Positions 139 through 9,252 are shown, numbered from the stretch's first letter. The stretch: 9,252 nucleotides of DNA from a bacterium (GCA_014384545.1 JACNFQ010000062.1:1-9252), one strand, 5' to 3'. Notes: a model not told the origin generated them from the sequence alone. A program made the numbers and translations.

Positions 139-178
139 AACCCCCGACCTAACGGAGAGCCACAACCCCCCGCCTAAC
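129..178. repeat. 25-bp tandem direct repeat, two copies
   Basis: Copy one is 129-153 and copy two is 154-178. Both begin GGAGAGCCACAACCCCC and end CCTAAC, and they differ at two adjacent bases near the 3' end. The second copy touches the stop codon (180-178) of the minus-strand membrane-protein gene. It could be a local slippage duplication or part of a dispersed intergenic repeat family. Confidence 0.7.
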
Positions 179-531
179 TACGAAACTAAGAGGGGGCGAA
201 AGGGTATGATCAGAATGCTAAGCAGAATCGCAGATGCAACGACCCACATCGCCAAGAACGCAACAGTATCCATAAAGTCCCGTTTTAAGAGGTAGCAACA
301 GAATGGAATATGTATCGCAGCCAAAACGACCATGGGTATTGCTCCACCTGTTGTGGCTCTGGAGATAACACCTGTATACAAGAAAAGCCCCGCACCTGCA
401 GCGAGGAGGAACGAAGGCCCCACCCAGAACACCCGCCCCGGACCCACCTGCACACTTGAAGTTAAGGTGTCTATTCCGATGGCGACACCACCTAAGACAA
501 CCGCAGCAAGGATGGTGAGAACGAAAACCAC
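178..531 (-). CDS. Small four-helix membrane protein, unknown function
   Basis: A 117-residue protein I do not recognise. It is mostly hydrophobic, with four likely membrane segments at about residues 1-20, 34-54, 64-83 and 88-110. A short polar stretch (about 21-33) follows the first helix, and a cytoplasmic-looking KRD sits near residue 83 with a Cys-Cys pair just before it. There is no signal-peptidase site or catalytic motif. The start is GTG at 531. No good Shine-Dalgarno is present, but TAGACT at 543-538 lies exactly 6 nt upstream, the arrangement seen at the other leading genes here and consistent with a leaderless mRNA. Two hairpins just upstream separate it from the RRM gene, so it is probably its own transcription unit. 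The four regularly spaced helices argue for a real gene. Confidence 0.6.
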   Translation of the reverse strand: MVFVLTILAAVVLGGVAIGIDTLTSSVQVGPGRVFWVGPSFLLAAGAGLFLYTGVISRATTGGAIPMVVLAAIHIPFCCYLLKRDFMDTVAFLAMWVVASAILLSILIIPFRPLLVS

Positions 532-537
532 GCCTCT

Positions 538-543
538 AGTCTA
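538..543 (-). promoter_or_regulatory. Leaderless -10 box of membrane-protein gene
   Basis: TAGACT on the minus strand, followed by exactly 6 nt and the GTG start. With standard -10 geometry, transcription would begin at or next to the start codon. No TTGACA-like -35 is visible at 16-19 bp. Confidence 0.5.
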
Positions 544-566
544 ATGGAAGTAGAAAACGACCTCCA

Positions 567-597
567 GAAATAAAGAAGGAGCACGGAAAAACGCTCC
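567..597 (-). terminator. Distal terminator-like hairpin after RRM gene
   Basis: On the minus strand GGAGC (597-593) pairs with GCTCC (582-578) across a 10-nt loop and is followed at once by TTCTTTATTTC. The stem is short, but the T-rich tail and the position between two genes fit an intrinsic terminator. Confidence 0.5.
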
Positions 598-605
598 AGC
601 AAGAA

Positions 606-626
606 ACTTAGAGAAAGACTCTAAGT
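606..626 (-). terminator. Proximal hairpin just after RRM stop codon
   Basis: ACTTAGAG (minus strand, 626-619), loop TCTTT, CTCTAAGT (613-606): a perfect 8-bp stem beginning one base past the RRM stop codon and followed by TTCTT. It is A+T-rich, so weak alone. With the next hairpin it makes a plausible tandem terminator, or it protects the 3' end of the RRM mRNA. Confidence 0.5.
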
Positions 627-627
627 A

Positions 628-879
628 CTATCTGCTTTCGCGGGGACGGGCTTCATTAACACGCATGTCGCGCCCATTAACCTGGGTGCCTTCAAGCTGT
701 TCAATAGCCCTAAGACCAGAAGCCCTGTCCACGAATTCAACGAAACCAAATCCCTTGGATCGGCCCGTGTCTCTCTCGGTGATTACCACCGCGTCTTTTA
801 CTTCGCCATGAGCAGAGAAAACCTCTCTCAATCCGTCGGAGTCGATGCTCCAAGCCAAATTTCCTACAAACAATCGCAT
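628..879 (-). CDS. Single-domain RRM RNA-binding protein
   Basis: An 83-residue protein that is essentially one RNA recognition motif, resembling the small glycine-rich or Rbp-type RRM proteins of cyanobacteria and other bacteria. RNP2 is LFVGNL (residues 3-8) and RNP1 is KGFGFVEF (42-49), carrying the aromatic residues that stack on RNA bases. The β-α-β-β-α-β order is intact. The C-terminus stops after a short Arg-rich tail (ARPRESR) with no glycine-rich extension. It should bind single-stranded RNA in the cytoplasm. In cyanobacteria such proteins are often cold-induced, but that role here is inference. The ATG at 879 has GATAGT 6 nt upstream (a leaderless -10 candidate) and also AGGAG 11 nt upstream, so either mode of initiation is possible. 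Its leader from arginase can fold. Two hairpins end the unit. Confidence 0.93.
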   Translation of the reverse strand: MRLFVGNLAWSIDSDGLREVFSAHGEVKDAVVITERDTGRSKGFGFVEFVDRASGLRAIEQLEGTQVNGRDMRVNEARPRESR

Positions 880-885
880 AACCTA

Positions 886-891
886 ACTATC
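886..891 (-). promoter_or_regulatory. Candidate leaderless -10 box of RRM gene
   Basis: GATAGT on the minus strand, 6 nt before ATG. It has the same spacing as the other leading genes, but it matches TATAAT at only 4 of 6 positions and overlaps a possible Shine-Dalgarno (AGGAG, 895-891). It is the weakest of the five. Confidence 0.35.
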
Positions 892-899
892 TCCTATCT

Positions 900-946
900 G
901 GGGCTTATGAGTTGGACAGATTGTCCAGCCCCAAGGGGACATTCTA
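900..946 (-). promoter_or_regulatory. Foldable leader upstream of RRM gene
   Basis: On the minus strand a TAGAAT hexamer (946-941) could serve as a second -10 box, giving a leader of about 55 nt. Downstream, GGGGC (932-928) pairs with GCCCC (904-900) around an inner stem TGGACA/TGTCCA (927-922 with 918-913, loop ATC), leaving an 8-nt one-sided bulge. The same GGGG can pair instead with CCCC at 938-935. The closed form ends about 4 nt before the AGGAG. The palindrome could equally be a protein-binding operator. Confidence 0.4.
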
Positions 947-954
947 CCTTACAT

Positions 955-1863
955 CTAGAGAATACGCTTTCCCATCGCGCTAGCAGCCAGTCCAACAGCT
1001 AATCTAGCCGTGCGGTTGCGGTCGTCTAAAACGGGATTCACTTCCACAATATCAAGCGCCCTTAGTGCCTTGCTATCGGCAATCCATTCCATCGCAAGGT
1101 GTGCCTCTCTATAGGTCATACCTCCGGGAACGGGTGTGCCCACTCCAGGTGCCTCTTTGGGGTCAACCGCATCTAAGTCTAAGCTTAGCCCGAATGCCTT
1201 GCCTTCTGGTCCCGCAATCCCAATCGCCTCTTTGATTACCGAAGCCATCCCCCGTTCATCGATTTCTCGCATGGTTAGCGAAGCAACACCCAGTTTGGTC
1301 AGAAGTTCCTTCTCTCCACCATCCACATCTCTCACCCCAACCAAAACGACTCTGTCAGGAGAAAACAGACCCAAACCTACCCCTTCTGAAAGCCCAGGTA
1401 TCTCTATTCCCAACAGTGCTGCCAAAGTCATCCCATGTAGATTTCCCGAGGGGCTGGTCTTGGGCGTATTCATATCGGCATGAGCATCAAACCAAATCAA
1501 ACCCATCGGCTCCTTCCCCGTAGTTGCACGCCCTTCTTGCACGCCCGCCATCGAACCCGCAGACAACGAATGGTCTCCACCTAACACAACGGGTATCCCA
1601 TCAGCTTTAACCACGGCAGCTGTGGCTAGTGCAACTTGGCGACAGACGGCTCCAATCTCTTGGCTATGGCGCGCATCAGAATCAACCACACGCTGCTCCT
1701 CTATCTGAGGAACCCCGATATTCCCCCCATCCATCACTTGGTGGTCTAACCGCCGAAATGCCGTATGGATCCTCGCCATGCGAATCGCACTGGGCCCCAT
1801 ATCCACCCCCCGCCTGCCAGCCCCCAAATCCATGGGAACCCCAAGAACACTTATTCTCGCCAT
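955..1863 (-). CDS. rocF: Arginase
   Basis: A 302-residue cytoplasmic member of the ureohydrolase family that hydrolyses L-arginine to L-ornithine and urea at a two-manganese centre. All metal ligands are present: GGDHS with His98, DAHAD with Asp126, His128 and Asp130, and the SLDLDAVDP block with Asp229 and Asp231. SGNLHGM near 139-145 matches the substrate loop, and APGVGTPVPGG (238-248) and EVNPVLD (274-280) are typical of arginase rather than agmatinase. Length matches the family (about 300). The ATG at 1863 has no close Shine-Dalgarno, but GATAAT lies 6 nt upstream, suggesting a leaderless mRNA. It diverges from the ABC exporter across 40 bp. The RRM gene follows after 75 bp. No urease or other arginine catabolic gene lies in the window, so its nitrogen role cannot be placed. 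Confidence 0.95.
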   Translation of the reverse strand: MARISVLGVPMDLGAGRRGVDMGPSAIRMARIHTAFRRLDHQVMDGGNIGVPQIEEQRVVDSDARHSQEIGAVCRQVALATAAVVKADGIPVVLGGDHSLSAGSMAGVQEGRATTGKEPMGLIWFDAHADMNTPKTSPSGNLHGMTLAALLGIEIPGLSEGVGLGLFSPDRVVLVGVRDVDGGEKELLTKLGVASLTMREIDERGMASVIKEAIGIAGPEGKAFGLSLDLDAVDPKEAPGVGTPVPGGMTYREAHLAMEWIADSKALRALDIVEVNPVLDDRNRTARLAVGLAASAMGKRIL

Positions 1864-1869
1864 GGGGGT

Positions 1870-1875
1870 ATTATC
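1870..1875 (-). promoter_or_regulatory. Leaderless -10 box of arginase
   Basis: GATAAT on the minus strand, followed by ACCCCC and the ATG. Standard geometry puts the transcript start on the A of ATG. The preceding TG gives TGATAAT, loosely extended -10-like. No convincing -35 is seen. Confidence 0.55.
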
Positions 1876-1890
1876 ACCTACCCTCCAATT

Positions 1891-1896
1891 TAGAAT
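1891..1896 (+). promoter_or_regulatory. Leaderless -10 box of ABC exporter operon
   Basis: TAGAAT on the plus strand, 7 nt before the GTG at 1904. The arginase -10 lies where this promoter's -35 contacts would fall, so the two divergent promoters overlap. If correct, this box also argues against the ATG at 1895, which lies inside it. Confidence 0.5.
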
Positions 1897-1903
1897 GCAA
1901 ACT

Positions 1904-2809
1904 GTGCTACAGGTTGTTTCTCTCTCGCACCGTTATGGCGACACCCTTGCTCTATCCCGAATCTCTCTTCAGTTAGGTAGGGGTGAAGGTGTCGCATTGC
2001 TGGGCCCTAATGGCGCAGGAAAATCCACCCTAATGAAGGCAATCATGGGTGCAATTCGTCCCCAAGAAGGAGAGATTCGGCTGTTCAACAAACCTCTCAA
2101 TAAACAGAGAGGTGTCTTGGGGTATGTTCCCCAAGAAATCGCTCTCCAAGAGGACCTATCAGTCAAAGAAAACCTTGAGATTCTTGGTGCGTGTGCTGGG
2201 CTAAGAGGAGATCGGTTTCGACGGGGAGTTTCGGAAGGGATCGCTTTGGCAGGGCTGGAACAGCGTGCTCACGAGAGAGTAGACCGCTTGTCGGGGGGGA
2301 TGAAGAGGCGGTTGAATCTAGCGGCAGGTCTGATTCATAACCCCCCCCTCCTTTTGCTTGACGAACCCACAGCAGGGATTGACCCACTTGAAACATCACG
2401 GATTCTTCGCGCTCTTAAGGCTTGGAAAGCTAAGGGAGGCTCTTTCTTGTTATCCACCCACAGAATGGAAGAAGTTGAGGGGTTATGTGATCGGGTTATC
2501 TTTCTCCATGAAGGCGTTCTCTTGGAAGAAGGAACCGTTAGCGAAGTCCTATCTCGGTGCCAGACGAAAGCGGCGATCCACGTCCTCTTTTCATCAACTC
2601 CTCCTCCTATCCCCTCTGGATGGCCAAGAGACCTGTCCGTAGAAGTTCGCAAGGATAGATGGGTCGTTTCAACTTCGGGCTCTGAGGGATTAGCGACAGT
2701 TGCCTCGTTGGTGGGGGGGGTTCAAGACTTGACGGGATTGGAGCCCCATCGCCCCGACTTGGGCGTTCGGTTTAGGGAACTTGCGGGGACGGGGTTGGTG
2801 CCCTCATGA
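1904..2809 (+). CDS. ABC transporter ATP-binding protein (ABC-2 exporter)
   Basis: A 301-residue nucleotide-binding subunit that should drive export with the permease encoded next. Visible motifs: Walker A GPNGAGKST (34-42), Q-loop YVPQ (Gln77), signature LSGGMKRR (129-136), Walker B LLLLDEP (149-155), D-loop AGID and switch His186 in LLSTHR. About 90 C-terminal residues (220-301) form the extra domain common in ABC-2 family ATPases. I chose GTG 1904 because it gives the classic opening MLQVVSLSHRYG and has TAGAAT 7 nt upstream. ATG 1895 (MQTVLQ...) is the alternative, and starts at 1862 or earlier would run to or into arginase. The stop overlaps the permease start as ATGA. The substrate cannot be told from sequence; drugs, lipids or ions are all possible for this family. 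Runs of C8 (2341-2348) and G8 (2713-2720) lie in frame. Confidence 0.93.
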   Translation: MLQVVSLSHRYGDTLALSRISLQLGRGEGVALLGPNGAGKSTLMKAIMGAIRPQEGEIRLFNKPLNKQRGVLGYVPQEIALQEDLSVKENLEILGACAGLRGDRFRRGVSEGIALAGLEQRAHERVDRLSGGMKRRLNLAAGLIHNPPLLLLDEPTAGIDPLETSRILRALKAWKAKGGSFLLSTHRMEEVEGLCDRVIFLHEGVLLEEGTVSEVLSRCQTKAAIHVLFSSTPPPIPSGWPRDLSVEVRKDRWVVSTSGSEGLATVASLVGGVQDLTGLEPHRPDLGVRFRELAGTGLVPS

Positions 2810-4107
2810 TTCCGTTCCTTGCTCTTTGGAAACGACTTGCCCTTTCGATGTCCCGCAACCCCCTTGCCCTCCTCATGACCTTCTTAGTTCCCCTTATCCT
2901 ATTCCTCTTTTTCTCGTTGGTTTTGGGTGGATCTGGTGGTGGAGGAAGCGGGGGGGGAATCACCCTCCTTCTTGTCGGAGAAGAGAGGGACACCCTGCCC
3001 CTTTCCCGTGCATTTGAGGATTTGGGAGGGGTTAACCCCTCTCTCAATTTCAAGGGTAAAGAGACGGAAGTGGCATGGACCGAAGAACGTGCGCGGGCGG
3101 CCGTTGCCGAGGGGGACGCCTCACTCGCTCTTCTATTGCCACCTGGTTGGCTTAGGGGCATTCTCTCCTTTGATGAACCCCGCCCAGAAGCAACCCTCTT
3201 GGTTTCTAGGCCCGACTCCCCAGCGTCCCGCATTGCCCAAGGTCTCTTGATACCTGCAGTAGCCTCGGCTTTAGGAGAGGGGGGTTTCTCTATTGTGGGG
3301 GATGCATTGCTTGCTAACCTAGACAGAGCTGTCAGCTTAGGCGAGATTTCTGTGGAACAACATAAGGTGTGGTCATCAGCCTGGATGACGGGAGAAGCAG
3401 CATGGGAATCTCAAGGGGGAGAGGGGAAGGGAACACTTGGGCTAGAAATGGACGCTTTGATTCCCCTACATGCCGAGGTTGCCGAAGTGGAAGAGGGCAT
3501 TCCCTTTTCGGTATCTGCCTATTATGCGGGTGCTACAGCCGTGCTCTTCTTGCTGTTTACAGTCGTCCATTTGGGGGGGCGTCTCCTTAAGGAAGAGAAG
3601 AATGGATATATCCGGCGTATCTTGCTGGGTGGCACACCCGTCTCTTCCGTTCTTGCAGCCCACATCGTCCATGGCACAGGGCTTTCATTGAGTGCATTGG
3701 CTTTGATGTTTTGGGTGGCGCACCAGTTTTTAGGGGCGGGTTTGGCGGGGCAAACTCTCCCTCTCCTCGTCGTGGGCATCTTGACAGGATTTGCCTTTGG
3801 AGCATTCGGGATCCTCTTCGCTTTCTTTATGCCCGACAGAGAGACTTTAGAACGCTCCTCTTCGATTGTGATTCTCCCCATGTCGGCATTAGGGGGTAGC
3901 ATGATTCCCCTCTTCATGCTTCCTGTATGGGTTCAGAACATCGGCAAGCTACTCCCCAACGGACAAGCTGTAGTCGCCTTTGAAAAAGTGGGGGCTAGAC
4001 ATATGTATTTATCAGAGATAACACCCCAACTTCTCTACCTTGTTGTCTTTACTGTCGTTGCCTTTGGATGTGCTACTACCCTTTGGAAACGGCGCTGGGT
4101 CGCCTAG
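2806..4107 (+). CDS. ABC-2 type exporter permease
   Basis: A 433-residue membrane subunit, partner of the upstream ATPase. One helix (about 20-41) is followed by a roughly 195-residue extracytoplasmic region (42-236). Five more helices lie at about 237-257, 281-305, 318-341, 351-374 and 408-426, with the layout of the ABC2_membrane_3 group. The LLKEEKNGYIRRILLGGTP stretch after helix 2 is the usual coupling region, and PMSALGGSMIPLFMLP matches the conserved helix 5 block. A flexible linker, GGSGGGGSGGG (41-51), directly follows helix 1. The ATG at 2806 overlaps the ATPase stop by 4 bp, implying coupled translation. The stop lies 9 bp from the convergent peptidase stop with no terminator between. 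The substrate is unknown. With one permease gene, the transporter is probably a homodimeric permease with two ATPases. Confidence 0.9.
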   Translation: MIPFLALWKRLALSMSRNPLALLMTFLVPLILFLFFSLVLGGSGGGGSGGGITLLLVGEERDTLPLSRAFEDLGGVNPSLNFKGKETEVAWTEERARAAVAEGDASLALLLPPGWLRGILSFDEPRPEATLLVSRPDSPASRIAQGLLIPAVASALGEGGFSIVGDALLANLDRAVSLGEISVEQHKVWSSAWMTGEAAWESQGGEGKGTLGLEMDALIPLHAEVAEVEEGIPFSVSAYYAGATAVLFLLFTVVHLGGRLLKEEKNGYIRRILLGGTPVSSVLAAHIVHGTGLSLSALALMFWVAHQFLGAGLAGQTLPLLVVGILTGFAFGAFGILFAFFMPDRETLERSSSIVILPMSALGGSMIPLFMLPVWVQNIGKLLPNGQAVVAFEKVGARHMYLSEITPQLLYLVVFTVVAFGCATTLWKRRWVA

Positions 4108-4116
4108 GACTTGGGG

Positions 4117-4776
4117 TTAGCGCCGTCGAGCAATACCGATGTAATGGAGGAGCTGGATCAAAGCAATAAGAGCAGCCACGACATAGGTTAGGGCTGCTGC
4201 ACGCAAGACGCCCCGAGCCAATACGCCTTCTTTTCTCCCCTCTAACACCCCCACTTCGTCTGCCATCCTCATCGCTCTGGCACTGGCATCAAACTCCACA
4301 GGTAGGGTCACAATATGGAACAAGACTGCACCTCCAAACGCAATGATCCCCAACCACAACAAGTTTGTATACCCTGTGAACATCCCAATCAGGATGAGAG
4401 GAAACGCCATGTTGCTCCCTATGTTCGCTACAGGAAAGATGGCTGACCGCACACCAAAGAATGCATCCGCCTTGGCATGTTGTACCGCATGCCCCGTTTC
4501 GTGGAGAGCGATCGCAATCGCTGTCACCGAACGCCCTTTGCCGTTCTCTGGGGTTAGGTTGATCGTTCGGGTTCTTGGATCGTAGTGATCCGCTGGTGCA
4601 ACGCCAAATCGAATGCCGGAGACTCCCGCCATTATTAACGCCCGCTCCGCAGCCTGAATCCCCGTCATACCAGACTGGTCTCGCACCTTGTGCCCCTTAG
4701 CGATAGCTACCCCAACCATCCGCCTTACTGCCGAAGAGACGACAATAAAGAGAATAATCATGACCCAATAACTCAT
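4117..4776 (-). CDS. YugP-type membrane zinc metallopeptidase
   Basis: A 219-residue protein of the Zn_peptidase_2 family (Bacillus subtilis YugP is the named relative; its natural substrate is not known to me). An N-terminal anchor (about 3-16) is followed by a soluble part. HETGHAVQ (92-99) supplies the two histidines and the glutamate of an HExxH zincin site. Further membrane segments lie at about 120-156 and 193-214. LPVEFDASARA (158-168) is a family hallmark whose Glu161 probably acts as the third zinc ligand. Length is typical. It is the last gene of the five-gene operon. Its ATG overlaps the preceding stop as ATGA, and GGAGG sits 7 nt upstream, so translation is coupled and Shine-Dalgarno driven. 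It may act in membrane-protein quality control, which is inference. Confidence 0.9.
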   Translation of the reverse strand: MSYWVMIILFIVVSSAVRRMVGVAIAKGHKVRDQSGMTGIQAAERALIMAGVSGIRFGVAPADHYDPRTRTINLTPENGKGRSVTAIAIALHETGHAVQHAKADAFFGVRSAIFPVANIGSNMAFPLILIGMFTGYTNLLWLGIIAFGGAVLFHIVTLPVEFDASARAMRMADEVGVLEGRKEGVLARGVLRAAALTYVVAALIALIQLLHYIGIARRR

Positions 4777-5582
4777 TCCTGTTCCTCCCGATCCCGCAAG
4801 ATCTTAATCGCTTCCCTATGTAGTTTACCATTCGTTGCTAAGACATCCCCCGTCTCCAAATGGGTATCTCCACCCCTAAGGTCAGAGACTTTTCCTCCTG
4901 CCTCTTCAACCAAAAGCGCCCCCGCCGCGATATCCCAGATGTTGAGCCCTGCCTCCCAGAACATATCAAACCGACCGGCAGCCGTATAGGCTAGGTCTAG
5001 AGCAGCGGCGCCCATCCTTCGAATCCCCCCAGCTACCTCAAAAAGACGATGGAACTGAGCCAAGAACTCAGAGATGCGGTGGCGCGTGGTGTGCGGGAAC
5101 CCTGTCGCAACGAAAGCCCCTTGGAGCGTGTTCTTGCCCCTCACACAAAGTGCTTCTTTTTCGCCTTTTCCCTTCACCCATGCCCCCTGCCCCTTCACCG
5201 CACAATAGACCTCTCTTGCCATCACGTCCACCACCACCCCAAGAACACTCTCTTTTCCTTTCATTAGTGCAACCGAAACGGCAAAGAACGGAATCCCATT
5301 GACAAAGTTGCGGGTTCCGTCCAGGGGGTCCACCACCCAAGAATACCCATCACCTAGGGTTCCTCCCGTCTCTTCGCCCACGAACCCTGCAGTAGGGAGA
5401 ATATCCCCCAATGCCTCCTTCAGCAATGCCTCTGATTCGTGGTCGATGCGTGTAACGACATCGTCTCCAACACCCTTTTTTGAAACATCACCAGCACTTA
5501 GAGCACGAAAAGCCCCTCTGGAGAGCTTTGCAGCACGATTCGCAGCGGCTACGACTTGGGGGGTGAGATCGGCTAAGTCCAC
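4773..5582 (-). CDS. Inositol monophosphatase family phosphatase
   Basis: About 269 residues of the Mg2+-dependent, lithium-sensitive phosphatase family (SuhB/IMPase; some members hydrolyse fructose-1,6-bisphosphate or histidinol phosphate). Metal and catalytic motifs are intact: GEETGG (69-74, Glu70 and Glu71), VDPLDGTRNF (84-93, Asp85 and Asp88) and WDIAAG (216-221, Asp217), followed by EEAGGKVSDLRGG. The exact substrate cannot be set from sequence. Two in-frame GTG codons lie 6 nt apart. I prefer the second (5582) because GGAGG at 5594-5590 is 7 nt from it but only 1 nt from the first (5588). It overlaps the end of moeA by 10 bp and the start of the peptidase gene by 4 bp, so it is an internal gene of the operon. 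Confidence 0.92.
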   Translation of the reverse strand: MDLADLTPQVVAAANRAAKLSRGAFRALSAGDVSKKGVGDDVVTRIDHESEALLKEALGDILPTAGFVGEETGGTLGDGYSWVVDPLDGTRNFVNGIPFFAVSVALMKGKESVLGVVVDVMAREVYCAVKGQGAWVKGKGEKEALCVRGKNTLQGAFVATGFPHTTRHRISEFLAQFHRLFEVAGGIRRMGAAALDLAYTAAGRFDMFWEAGLNIWDIAAGALLVEEAGGKVSDLRGGDTHLETGDVLATNGKLHREAIKILRDREEQE

Positions 5583-6787
5583 TTCCACCCCTCCACGACC
5601 GTTTCAGAAACAACCTCCCCTTCATCTCCAGAAAATCGCAACAACATCTCTGTTCTTGCTAAGCCCTCCACACGGTGGCTGCCCTCCGGTTGTACAGGAG
5701 CAACCGTTAGGGGAGAATGCCGAACAATCTCCGCGGGGACAAATCCCGGCTTTGAACTCTTCCAGATGATAGGGGCATCCAAGAGAGTCTCTAGAGGTGT
5801 CATTCGGGTTCTTCTAGCACCCACCAGATGGCGGAGAATCTGCAAGCCCAGAATCTCAAACACGATAAGTGCACTCAACGGGTTTCCGGCTAATCCCAAA
5901 CCGATCGTTCCCGAATCCCACCTCGTAATAAAAGAGGGACCCCCCGGTTTGAGGATAAGACCAGGCACCAACATCTCTGCCCCTGCCTTTTCAAATGCGA
6001 GACGGGCAAAGTCCTTCTTGCCCCCAGCCGCCCCTCCTATAGTAATGACAAGGTCTGCCTTCTTTTCTCCATCACTAACAGCTTGAATCAATGCGTCCTT
6101 ATTGTCGGGAATAAGTTCCATCGCCACCACTTTGCACCCTTCCTTCTTTGCACGATTGGCAATCGCAATGAGATTGCCGCAAGGGATAGCATCCTGAAAC
6201 GGAGGCTTCGTTCCGGGCATATAGAGTTCGTCCCCAGAAGCGATGATCGCCACTTTGGGAATAGGAGCAACCGTTACTGATTCCACACCTCCAGAGAAGA
6301 GTGATTGGAGGGACCAAGGTGTCAAACGCACGCCTTTTGTGGCTAATAGGTCACCCTTATGAATATCTTCGGCTTGCCGACGAACCGACCGTCCACTTGT
6401 CACTCCCTTATCGAACGAAACAACACCCTCAGTTTCAGCACTTGCTTCTTCCCACGGCACCACCGCTGTCGCCCCCTTAGGGATAGGCGCACCTGTGCCA
6501 ACCCAAGCACAACATCCCTCGGGTAGTTCTTGAGCCTTGTCTCCAGCATGAGTGGGCGAAGCGAGTGACAAGGTAACGGGTTCACTGGGCGTCGCATTGA
6601 CCAAAGCAAGATGGTCAACGCCCCACCCATCCATAGCACTTTCGTTCTTCTTGGGCAAATCCCAACCCGCTTCGGCATCCTCCAACAACCACCGACCTCC
6701 CGCAACTTCCACGGACAGACTTTCTGAGGGCAAGAGAGCAACCTCTCTCTCCAAAACCTCTTGGGCTTCAGTCAGTGGTATCCGCAT
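5573..6787 (-). CDS. moeA: Molybdopterin molybdenumtransferase MoeA (divergent)
   Basis: A 404-residue enzyme that inserts molybdate into adenylylated molybdopterin, a late step of molybdenum cofactor synthesis. Family landmarks in order: NESAMDGWGV (48-57), GTGAPIPKGATAVV (97-110, with Glu113 following), SGDELYMPG (184-192), GGAAGGKKDF (251-260), KPGGP (280-284) and GLAGNPLSA (298-306), then the C-terminal beta-barrel domain. Length fits (E. coli about 410). Three conserved loops differ from the common forms GGVSVGxxD, KPGKP and GLPGNP. The frame is open further upstream to 6889, but ATG 6787 gives the normal opening and has GAGG just before it. It overlaps mobA by 20 bp, so two consecutive pathway steps are translated together. 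It could be a paralogue of altered function, but the mobA neighbour supports a real MoeA. Confidence 0.9.
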   Translation of the reverse strand: MRIPLTEAQEVLEREVALLPSESLSVEVAGGRWLLEDAEAGWDLPKKNESAMDGWGVDHLALVNATPSEPVTLSLASPTHAGDKAQELPEGCCAWVGTGAPIPKGATAVVPWEEASAETEGVVSFDKGVTSGRSVRRQAEDIHKGDLLATKGVRLTPWSLQSLFSGGVESVTVAPIPKVAIIASGDELYMPGTKPPFQDAIPCGNLIAIANRAKKEGCKVVAMELIPDNKDALIQAVSDGEKKADLVITIGGAAGGKKDFARLAFEKAGAEMLVPGLILKPGGPSFITRWDSGTIGLGLAGNPLSALIVFEILGLQILRHLVGARRTRMTPLETLLDAPIIWKSSKPGFVPAEIVRHSPLTVAPVQPEGSHRVEGLARTEMLLRFSGDEGEVVSETVVEGWKWT

Positions 6788-7394
6788 GAGCCTCTTTCCA
6801 TTCCTTACATAACTGTTCATAATCTCGGAGATCGTTGCAATTAGAGAACGACCAACGGGGAATCCCCCGATTGACAAAGAACTTCTCATCTACCATTTGG
6901 ATACCTACCCTATCTAAGAAACCATGGAGTTTACGACCTAGATTGGTCTCGGCTGTTCTCTCTAAGTAGGTGGGGATACGCACTCCCTCTTTCGCTCGGT
7001 AGAGTGCCATCGTGGGCTGCGGAAACCCCTGGGCATAGGGCATGACGCACCCCTCTCTACCCGTAGCTTCGTCCCAGAGCAATTTGGGAAGTCGTTTGTC
7101 TATTGCGGGCACATCACACGCTGCCACGAAAGCCCAATGTGTTTTACACGCTGATAATCCAGCATGAATGCCTGCCAAGACGCCTTCCCCTTCCAAAATA
7201 TCCGGGACGATCTCCCACTTTTTCCATCGCTGGGGATCGGGGGGACTACCCACAATGAAGACACGCGGAATCGTCTCGCCCAGACTCTCCAGTATCCGCT
7301 CTAAGAAAGTCTTTCCACCCAAAGTCATTAACGCTTTGGGTTGCCCCATCCTTCGACTGGCACCCCCTGCCAATACAAACGCCTCTTGTATCAC
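6768..7394 (-). CDS. mobA: Molybdenum cofactor guanylyltransferase MobA
   Basis: A 208-residue nucleotidyltransferase that joins GMP to molybdenum cofactor to make the guanine dinucleotide form. The N-terminal nucleotide loop is LAGGASRRMGQPK (8-20). GVLAGIHAGL (71-80) and the metal-binding CDVP (93-96, Asp94) follow, and NCNDLRDYE (185-193) near the C-terminus corresponds to the family's N-x-N-x-x-x-D-x block. Size fits MobA. The closely related MocA (cytidylyltransferase) cannot be wholly excluded, because QPKALMTLGGKTFLERIL resembles both, but the CDVP and NCND blocks favour MobA. The start is GTG 7394, overlapping the thioesterase stop as GTGA; its Shine-Dalgarno is weak, so translation probably depends on coupling. 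moeA overlaps its 3' end. A guanylated cofactor would serve DMSO-reductase-family enzymes encoded elsewhere. Confidence 0.88.
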   Translation of the reverse strand: MIQEAFVLAGGASRRMGQPKALMTLGGKTFLERILESLGETIPRVFIVGSPPDPQRWKKWEIVPDILEGEGVLAGIHAGLSACKTHWAFVAACDVPAIDKRLPKLLWDEATGREGCVMPYAQGFPQPTMALYRAKEGVRIPTYLERTAETNLGRKLHGFLDRVGIQMVDEKFFVNRGIPRWSFSNCNDLRDYEQLCKEWKEAHADTTD

Positions 7395-8335
7395 CTACCT
7401 ATGCGCTCCATCCGTGCCGACCGCCTCTTTTCCCCCGCCTCAAAACGACTCTTCTCCCCTCCTGTAACGGGATGAAACAACTTGACGGGTTCGGGTCGTC
7501 CATTTTCGCCTAGTGCTACAAAAGTAGCGTAGGCGGTGCAGACACGCCTCCTTGTCCCTTTGAAGGGATCCTCGGCAAAGACCCTAACGCCCACCTCCAT
7601 CGAACTCTTGTGGATGTAGTTCAATGCGGCACGAAATCCCATCAACTCATGCCCCCGAATCGGCGTATGGAAATCGACAGCGTCTACACTGGCGGTCACA
7701 GCGGGTCGTTTGCAGTAGCGGTGGCACGCAATGGCGGCAATCTCATCCAGCGCCAACATCACTTCTCCGGCAAAGACTTTGTCCCCCACCATCATCTCGG
7801 GCGTTACCATCCGCAAACCTGTCGCAACAGCGGGTGCGGAAAAACCTGCCTCAGTGACAGGCAGACTTGCATCAAAATCCGCCAAACGACAGGTGCGAAT
7901 CTCACGTCTGGCTAGGGCGCGCCGCTGAGCCTCATTCTCCGCTTCGGTATGGGGCGAGACAGGGAGTGCTGGAATGGGTGTACCCTTGTCGTCCAATGCG
8001 ATAAATGTCAAGTGTGCTCGACAGGTATGTACCGCGTTCTCTCCCCCTCTATCCGTCCGCATCACATCGATACGGACTTCCATAGACGCCCCAAAGGTCG
8101 CTTGAACAGTCGCCGTAAACCCCACCCTGTCCCCCAGTCTCACACCCTTCAAAATATCGATATCTTCCATCGCCCCTAAAATCACCCTCCCCTTCTGGTG
8201 ACGGTTGGCGCACATCGTCCCTGCCTCACAAATCCAGTGCATCAAACGCCCGCCATATAGGCGCATCGCAGGATTTACATGTTGGGGGAAGACGATTCGG
8301 AGAATCTCTAGAGTTGTTGAAGCAGGTGTTGCCAT
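7391..8335 (-). CDS. Double-hotdog acyl-CoA thioesterase (ACOT7/BACH-like)
   Basis: A 314-residue protein with two hotdog domains, about 8-125 and 170-288, that should hydrolyse acyl-CoA to free acid and CoA. Domain one has HVNPAMRLYGGRLMHWICEAG with the family Asn at residue 21 but Glu37 where an Asp is usual. Domain two has VGDKVFAGEVMLALDEIA with Asp197 but no matching Asn. This complementary pattern is that of ACOT7, where Asn from one half and Asp from the other form one working site. The VDFHTPIRGHEL and HKSSMEVGVRV blocks are typical. The last 25 residues are Arg/Lys-rich. It heads the five-gene operon. The ATG at 8335 has TAGAAT exactly 6 nt upstream and no Shine-Dalgarno, suggesting a leaderless transcript. 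Confidence 0.9.
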   Translation of the reverse strand: MATPASTTLEILRIVFPQHVNPAMRLYGGRLMHWICEAGTMCANRHQKGRVILGAMEDIDILKGVRLGDRVGFTATVQATFGASMEVRIDVMRTDRGGENAVHTCRAHLTFIALDDKGTPIPALPVSPHTEAENEAQRRALARREIRTCRLADFDASLPVTEAGFSAPAVATGLRMVTPEMMVGDKVFAGEVMLALDEIAAIACHRYCKRPAVTASVDAVDFHTPIRGHELMGFRAALNYIHKSSMEVGVRVFAEDPFKGTRRRVCTAYATFVALGENGRPEPVKLFHPVTGGEKSRFEAGEKRRSARMERIGR

Positions 8336-8341
8336 CCCAGT

Positions 8342-8347
8342 ATTCTA
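8342..8347 (-). promoter_or_regulatory. Leaderless -10 box of thioesterase-mobA-moeA operon
   Basis: TAGAAT on the minus strand, then ACTGGG, then ATG. It is the same hexamer as at the ABC operon and has the 6-nt spacing of arginase. No TTGACA-like -35 at the usual distance. It would drive all five downstream genes. Confidence 0.55.
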
Positions 8348-8711: not shown

Positions 8712-8723
8712 TCTAGCGCTAGA
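8712..8723. repeat. Perfect 12-bp palindrome over ALDH stop codon
   Basis: TCTAGCGCTAGA reads the same on both strands and contains the ALDH stop codon (8721-8719). With no loop it is more likely a DNA-level palindrome than an RNA hairpin. It may be chance. Confidence 0.45.
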
Positions 8724-9252
8724 GAGCACGGGGGTGCCAGATGGTCTTCATCTCCACGAAGGGCTCTATCCATAGGGGAGACTCGCAGCCGTTGCAAAAC
8801 CAGCCCTCCCCCTCCACATCCCGCACCCTGACCCGCTTCAGGTTCTCCGCCACTCCTTCCTCCAGAATCTTCTTGAGAGGAGGGGCGCATCCCGCGGCGT
8901 GGATACCGTCCACGCCGCGGTGCGTGGCAACGACATCCGCCAACTCTTCAGCGTATCCAGTTAGGAGGTTGAGGACCCCCGCCGGGACATCACTGGTCGC
9001 AGCGACTTCTCCGAGGAGCGCTGTCGCCAAGGGATAGGCACCGGAGCCCAACGCGATGACTGTGTTCCCCGCGGCAAGGGGGGGGGCCAACAGTGAAACG
9101 AGGGCAAGGAGGGGAGCTTCGTCAGGGGCGATAACAGCGACCACCCCAGTGGGCTCGGCGGTGGTGAAGTTGTAAAAGGGAGCCGCCACAGGGTTTTGAT
9201 TGCCTAGGAGAGCAGCATACTTATCGGTCCACCCGGCGTAGCAAACCAAGCG
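8719..9252 (-). CDS. ALDH16-like non-catalytic aldehyde dehydrogenase domain, 5'-truncated by window
   Basis: The C-terminal 177 residues of a larger protein; the frame is open at the right edge and the first methionine-like codon (TTG 9249) is not a start. YAGWTDKY, EPTGVVAVIAPDEAPLLALVSLLAPPLAAGNTV, TSDVPAGVLNLLTG and the VDGI block follow the aldehyde dehydrogenase fold. After ENLKR, where ordinary enzymes have ELGGK and then the catalytic Cys region, this protein passes within about 35 residues to its end, EPFVEMKTIWHPRAL. That short ending, with a K-x-I-W-x-P motif, is what I recall from the second, pseudo-enzyme domain of bacterial ALDH16. The lack of Glu and Cys is then normal rather than damage. 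Such domains have structural or dimerisation roles. Whether a catalytic domain is fused upstream or encoded separately lies outside the window. A 9-G run (9078-9086) is in frame. Confidence 0.8.
   Translation of the reverse strand, partial: RLVCYAGWTDKYAALLGNQNPVAAPFYNFTTAEPTGVVAVIAPDEAPLLALVSLLAPPLAAGNTVIALGSGAYPLATALLGEVAATSDVPAGVLNLLTGYAEELADVVATHRGVDGIHAAGCAPPLKKILEEGVAENLKRVRVRDVEGEGWFCNGCESPLWIEPFVEMKTIWHPRAL

Follow-up and report, generated by a model that had tools for sequence, protein, structure and literature searches.

Start-adjacent -10 hexamers and predicted leaderless leading genes in a draft genome from a little-sampled bacterial lineage

How is a gene read when a -10-like hexamer lies only 6 or 7 nt before its start codon? 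The question is raised by the window, the whole 9,252-nt stretch analysed here, which is contig C107 of the draft genome G000 (1.39 Mb, 79% complete, 107 contigs; GC content 52% in the sampled part). A preliminary description had proposed that all five leading genes of the window share a uniform leaderless start and that internal genes use Shine-Dalgarno (SD) sites or coupling. Judged from the sequence, it is highly probable that a -10 element without a -35 yields leaderless leading genes, alongside SD-led or coupled internal genes; the transcript starts and the translation route are those that we infer from this arrangement. G000, G001 and G002 were the only members of the phylum reached by a phylum-wide search of the genome collection, and they belong to a single family, while the remaining sampled genomes have only the domain in common with G000. 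By these relations, G000 belongs neither to the Deinococcota nor to the Actinomycetota.

Gene starts in the window

The features of the window on which the analysis draws are as follows.

178..531, minus strand: small membrane-protein ORF, 117 aa, start GTG at 529-531; predicted leaderless
538..543, minus strand: -10 hexamer TAGACT, 6 nt before the membrane-protein GTG; 7.2 bits, p=0.005
628..879, minus strand: RRM-domain RNA-binding protein, 83 aa (PF00076)
886..891, minus strand: GATAGT, claimed -10 of the RRM gene; weak, -0.7 bits, p=0.087 against control positions
891..895, minus strand: AGGAG, likely SD of the RRM gene, 11 nt from its ATG
898..934, minus strand: predicted hairpin in the putative RRM leader, inner part GGACAATCTGTCC
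941..946, minus strand: consensus -10 TAGAAT, 61 nt upstream of the RRM gene and directly past the arginase stop; likely the true RRM promoter
955..1863, minus strand: arginase-family gene (PF00491), N-terminus fitting the family; predicted leaderless
1864..1903, no strand: arginase/ABC divergent spacer, 40 bp, with two back-to-back -10 boxes
1870..1875, minus strand: -10 hexamer GATAAT, 6 nt before the arginase ATG; 4.8 bits, p=0.012
1891..1896, plus strand: -10 hexamer TAGAAT, 7 nt before the ABC ATPase GTG at 1904; 9.7 bits
1904..2809, plus strand: ABC transporter ATPase (PF00005); predicted leaderless
2806..4107, plus strand: ABC-2 permease (PF12698), overlapping the ATPase gene by 4 nt
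4784..4788, minus strand: SD GGAGG, 7 nt before the zinc peptidase ATG at 4776
5590..5594, minus strand: SD GGAGG, 7 nt before the inositol-phosphatase GTG at 5580-5582
6791..6794, minus strand: GAGG, just 3 nt before the moeA ATG at 6787
7391..8335, minus strand: acyl-CoA thioesterase-like gene (4HBT, PF03061), heading an operon; predicted leaderless
8342..8347, minus strand: -10 hexamer TAGAAT, 6 nt before the thioesterase ATG; 9.7 bits

The minus-strand operon has the order thioesterase-mobA-moeA-inositol phosphatase-zinc peptidase, and its first four genes keep this order in G001, where the operon ends with an arginase homolog. The best matches of the window's arginase, at about 53%, were spread among Acidobacteriota and Planctomycetota in a contig scan of genomes. 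No Pfam family was matched by the small membrane-protein ORF, whose start codon is a predicted one, and an Rfam search of the window returned zero matches. Near one contig end (128-178), a 25-bp unit, CGGAGAGCCACAACCCCCCACCTAA, is present in two tandem copies. At the other end, the C-terminal part of what appears to be an aldehyde dehydrogenase gene (8719-9252, minus strand) is cut by the contig end and separated from the thioesterase gene by 383 bp without a called gene.

Re-reading of the sequence returned the five hexamers and spacings exactly as first described (TAGACT-6-GTG, GATAGT-6-ATG, GATAAT-6-ATG, TAGAAT-7-GTG and TAGAAT-6-ATG), as well as the SD sites inside the operon (GGAGG-7-ATG for the peptidase, GGAGG-7-GTG for the phosphatase and GAGG for moeA). 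A hexamer that agrees with TATAAT in at least four of six letters, with a spacer of 6 or 7, was present at 6.4% of control positions. Provided that the choice of the five starts is accepted, five of five would thus arise by chance with a probability of about 1e-6. We also scored the hexamers with a matrix learned from G000 sequence outside the window, with p values set against control positions. Four of the five scored significantly (p 0.000-0.012), and TAGAAT is the highest-scoring hexamer genome-wide. The exception was the GATAGT of the RRM gene; the terms "uniform" and "all five" hold for the thioesterase, ABC ATPase, membrane-protein and arginase genes and are slightly too strong for the window as a whole. 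The label "leading" also needs narrowing, since the RRM and membrane-protein genes lie 75 and 96 nt, respectively, downstream of a same-strand gene and are not strictly leading. For the ABC ATPase, an alternative start is ATG at 1895, and GTG at 1904 agrees with the motif as well as with the N-terminus typical of these proteins. Neither a -10 nor an SD was found upstream of the ABC-2 permease start; given its 4-nt overlap with the ATPase gene, the permease is predicted to be reached by translational coupling.

The RRM gene is probably the window's leadered gene and not a leaderless one, because GATAGT scores poorly, AGGAG stands at spacer 11 and a perfect TAGAAT lies at 941-946. Its transcript likely starts near 934, which would give a leader of about 55 nt. 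A leaderless RRM gene read from GATAGT, as first proposed, would draw on the correct spacing of that hexamer and its four of six matches to TATAAT, and we consider it unlikely in view of the negative matrix score, the SD-like site and the consensus box just beyond the arginase stop. A hexamer of the TAGAAT type also faces other leadered genes. The region 880-940 (minus strand), 3' of the consensus TAGAAT, might form a structured leader; the minimum free energy of 868-935 is -19.4 kcal/mol, with a modest z score of -1.42. No homolog of the RRM gene was found in G001 or G002.

Spacing of the hexamer across the genome

A sample of 702 kb of G000, about half of the genome, was used for the genome-wide analysis, and its proportions are thus estimates. 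In this sample, 682 genes were called by a home-made codon-based caller that is blind to upstream signals and computes the starts; a gene was counted as leading when it was divergent or at least 80 nt behind a same-strand gene. Of the 200 leading genes, 55 had a TANNNT separated from the start codon by a spacer of 6 or 7 nt, as did 25 of the 379 internal genes (Fisher 1.9e-11); other spacer pairs in leading genes gave a mean of 5.8 and a maximum of 12 per 200. The peak that the preliminary description had named as its own genome-wide check was thus present. Among starts with a single candidate, an adjacent box was found in 12 of 26 divergent genes, and among starts that agree with the G001 ortholog in an alignment of the N-termini, in 14 of 32 leading against 8 of 105 internal genes.

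A two-motif EM analysis recovered T.90 A.96 G.59 A/G A.83 T.93 in 39% of leading genes, with a spacer of 6 (55%) or 7 (25%), and an SD motif, AGGAG, in 48% of internal and 20% of leading genes; about 40% of leading genes had neither. The division into leaderless leading genes and SD-led or coupled internal genes therefore stands as a strong tendency, and not as a rule, in view of the 39% of leading genes with an adjacent -10 and the roughly 20% with an SD. The commonest start-adjacent hexamers were TAGAAT (20) and TAGGAT (15), with TATAAT just once; distal positions in leading genes held TATAAT seven times, and TAGAAT and TAGGAT are concentrated beside starts. TTG start codons were found in 1 of 55 adjacent-box genes as against 62 of 524 others (p=0.02), as expected if the +1 nucleotide must be a purine. 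Searches of the three phylum assemblies for a 16S rRNA, and with it the anti-SD, found none.

Controls behaved as expected. With annotated starts, Escherichia coli, the negative control, had the motif at spacer 6 or 7 in 1 of 65 leading genes, and plasmid 3 of Deinococcus deserti, the positive control, had 8 of 79 with a peak at 5-7; annotated starts were used for the latter, as the home-made caller placed starts poorly on 150 kb of the plasmid. A 6-nt spacer puts TAG in frame as a stop codon at -12, which could favour such start calls. This artefact was ruled out: in-frame stops at -12 in the 200 leading genes were TAG 29 times, TAA 7 times and TGA twice, with no TAG-like enrichment of TAA or TGA, and TA[CT]NNT at 6 or 7 was likewise enriched (15 vs 1.6 per position). 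The TAG four codons before the start in these 29 genes may also block N-terminal extension.

The box is shared with G001 (35% GC), in which the spacer peak is broader (6-10). Among 20 ortholog pairs leading in both genomes, the box was present in both members of 10 pairs, in G000 only in 2, in G001 only in 2 and in neither in 6 (p=0.02). The thioesterase ortholog of G001 has TAAAAT-8-GTG.

Promoter identity, divergent spacers and the primary sigma factor

The hexamer is most likely a -10 promoter element, and not a translation signal, since it is oriented toward distant genes and precedes untranslated tRNA genes. Leading genes without an adjacent box, together with mid-distance genes, had the same hexamers further upstream, with 53 forward and 10 reverse. 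Before tRNA genes of both genomes, the hexamer lies mostly 7-15 nt upstream (19 of 31 forward hits, p=2e-8). At the 16-18 bp distance of a -35, 3 of 73 boxes in G000 had a TTGACA-like site, compared with about 7 of 73 at other distances. When E. coli was examined in this way, the count was 17 of 63 compared with about 8. The earlier observation of no recognisable -35 thus extends from the window to the sampled genes.

That the hexamer serves translation, for example as a degenerate SD, is suggested by TAGGAT, the second commonest form, whose AGGA sits at SD distance. This reading is extremely improbable: the commonest form, TAGAAT, has no GG, the first and last T are each about 90% conserved, the element stands in one orientation before tRNA and distant genes, and it is underrepresented in internal genes, the class in which the SD is enriched. 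Ordinary leaders from distal promoters, with the adjacent hexamers as an AT-rich coincidence or a start-calling artefact, might also be considered, because the starts are computational and -10-like hexamers are short. The peak is nevertheless missing at control spacings, in internal genes and in E. coli under the same pipeline, and extra upstream forward -10 boxes occur at 0.66/kb in genes with an adjacent -10 and at 3.25/kb in those without. In addition, divergent spacers of 18-50 bp are too short for leaders, and we regard this explanation as very improbable.

The median divergent spacer was 65 bp in G000 and 57 bp in G001, compared with 212 bp in E. coli and 360 bp in the D. deserti plasmid. 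Leaders, SDs or a -35 would not fit outside coding DNA in the arginase/ABC spacer of the window. Other short spacers of G000, and the gene of its primary sigma factor, are as follows.

L126, 5509-5538: 30-bp spacer with TAGGAT-6 and TAGAAT-6, facing outward
L118, 7137-7165: 29-bp spacer with two outward -10 boxes
C16: 50-bp spacer with two outward -10 boxes
L147, 10910-10927: 18-bp spacer with overlapping TATCAT/TATGAT
L143, 3330-4715, minus strand: RpoD, primary sigma factor (orthologs L200 in G001 and L201 in G002)

The L126 and L118 arrangements are kept in G001, and that of C16 approximately. Between rpoD and its divergent neighbour (L143:4773-4810), we found a palindrome, GAGTATACTC, that reads as TATACT on either strand and is kept in the ortholog spacer of G001 (two genera). 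Back-to-back boxes would be expected to fire in a mutually exclusive manner, because two polymerases cannot fit such a spacer simultaneously.

RpoD carries an insertion of about 90 aa in region 3 in all three phylum genomes and in 0 of 27 other aligned genomes. A second insertion, of 6 aa (EADGKP), occurs only in G000 and falls within the helix-turn-helix of region 4.2, in its turn. As a cause of the missing -35, the latter is weakened by G001 and G002, which lack it, and by the promoter pattern that G001 shares with G000.

In the mechanism that we propose, the primary sigma factor would read adjacent -10 boxes without a -35, and RNA polymerase would start 6-7 nt past the box, at the start codon itself or no more than 1-2 nt away from it. 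Leading genes would yield leaderless mRNAs that are translated from a 5'-terminal AUG or GUG, presumably by direct 70S binding, and operon-internal genes would be reached via an SD or a stop-start overlap. A -10 placed further upstream would drive leadered genes, such as the RRM gene, and tRNA genes. More tentatively, these elements may belong together: the phylum's housekeeping promoters might be roughly a lone TAG(A/G)AT without a -35, read by an insertion-bearing sigma factor and allowing divergent leaderless pairs from one 18-50 bp bidirectional promoter. The sigma factor of this doubtful joint reading is the one with the phylum-specific insertion of about 90 aa in region 3 and, in G000, also the 6 aa in the -35-reading helix-turn-helix.

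Comparison with known systems

The leaderless mode with a -10 next to the ORF is already known in bacteria and is found here in an additional phylum. General literature searches returned no report of leaderless genes in such a lineage. With the present case, the bacteria that use leaderless expression as a main mode would gain a deep lineage of which few members have been sampled, which has a bearing on the question of leaderless initiation as the ancestral state. The spacing also provides a practical rule by which gene starts can be corrected in metagenome-assembled genomes of this kind, and the very small natural bidirectional promoters and the odd primary sigma factor are testable partners.

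Streptomyces HrdB-type promoters have TAGRRT, and actinobacterial HrdB promoters often carry a -35. G000 resembles Actinobacteria in its TAG-type -10 and many predicted leaderless genes, and differs from the actinobacterial HrdB promoters in its phylum and in that no -35 was seen. A leaderless transcriptome has been described in Mycobacterium tuberculosis (PMC3898074), and a review covers how 70S ribosomes translate leaderless mRNAs (PMC9031893).

A survey of the 953 bacterial genomes of 2010 found that leaderless genes across bacteria are marked by a TANNNT some 12 bp ahead of their start, with first genes leaderless and operon-distal genes SD-led (Zheng et al. 2011, PMC3160421). The medium-GC genomes of that survey have TAtaaT, whereas the 52%-GC G000 has TAG(A/G)AT. 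In Deinococcota, the "-10 region adjacent to ORF" is an experimentally proven promoter of leaderless genes (PMC12340547). G000 is like these bacteria in having TANNNT a few nucleotides before leading ORFs, a missing classical -35 and a coexisting GGAG motif, and unlike them in its TAG(A/G)AT box, its phylum and its far shorter divergent spacers (65 vs 360 bp on the D. deserti plasmid).

In E. coli, bidirectional promoters drive divergent transcription from pseudo-symmetrical sequences (PMC12825309). Those of G000 share the pseudo-symmetrical sequence and the divergent transcription predicted from it, but here a single spacer of 18-50 bp is predicted to give rise to two coding mRNAs, both leaderless. 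Taken together, the less usual traits of this system are the TAG(A/G)AT consensus, the missing -35, the very small size of the divergent promoters and the insertion in the sigma factor.
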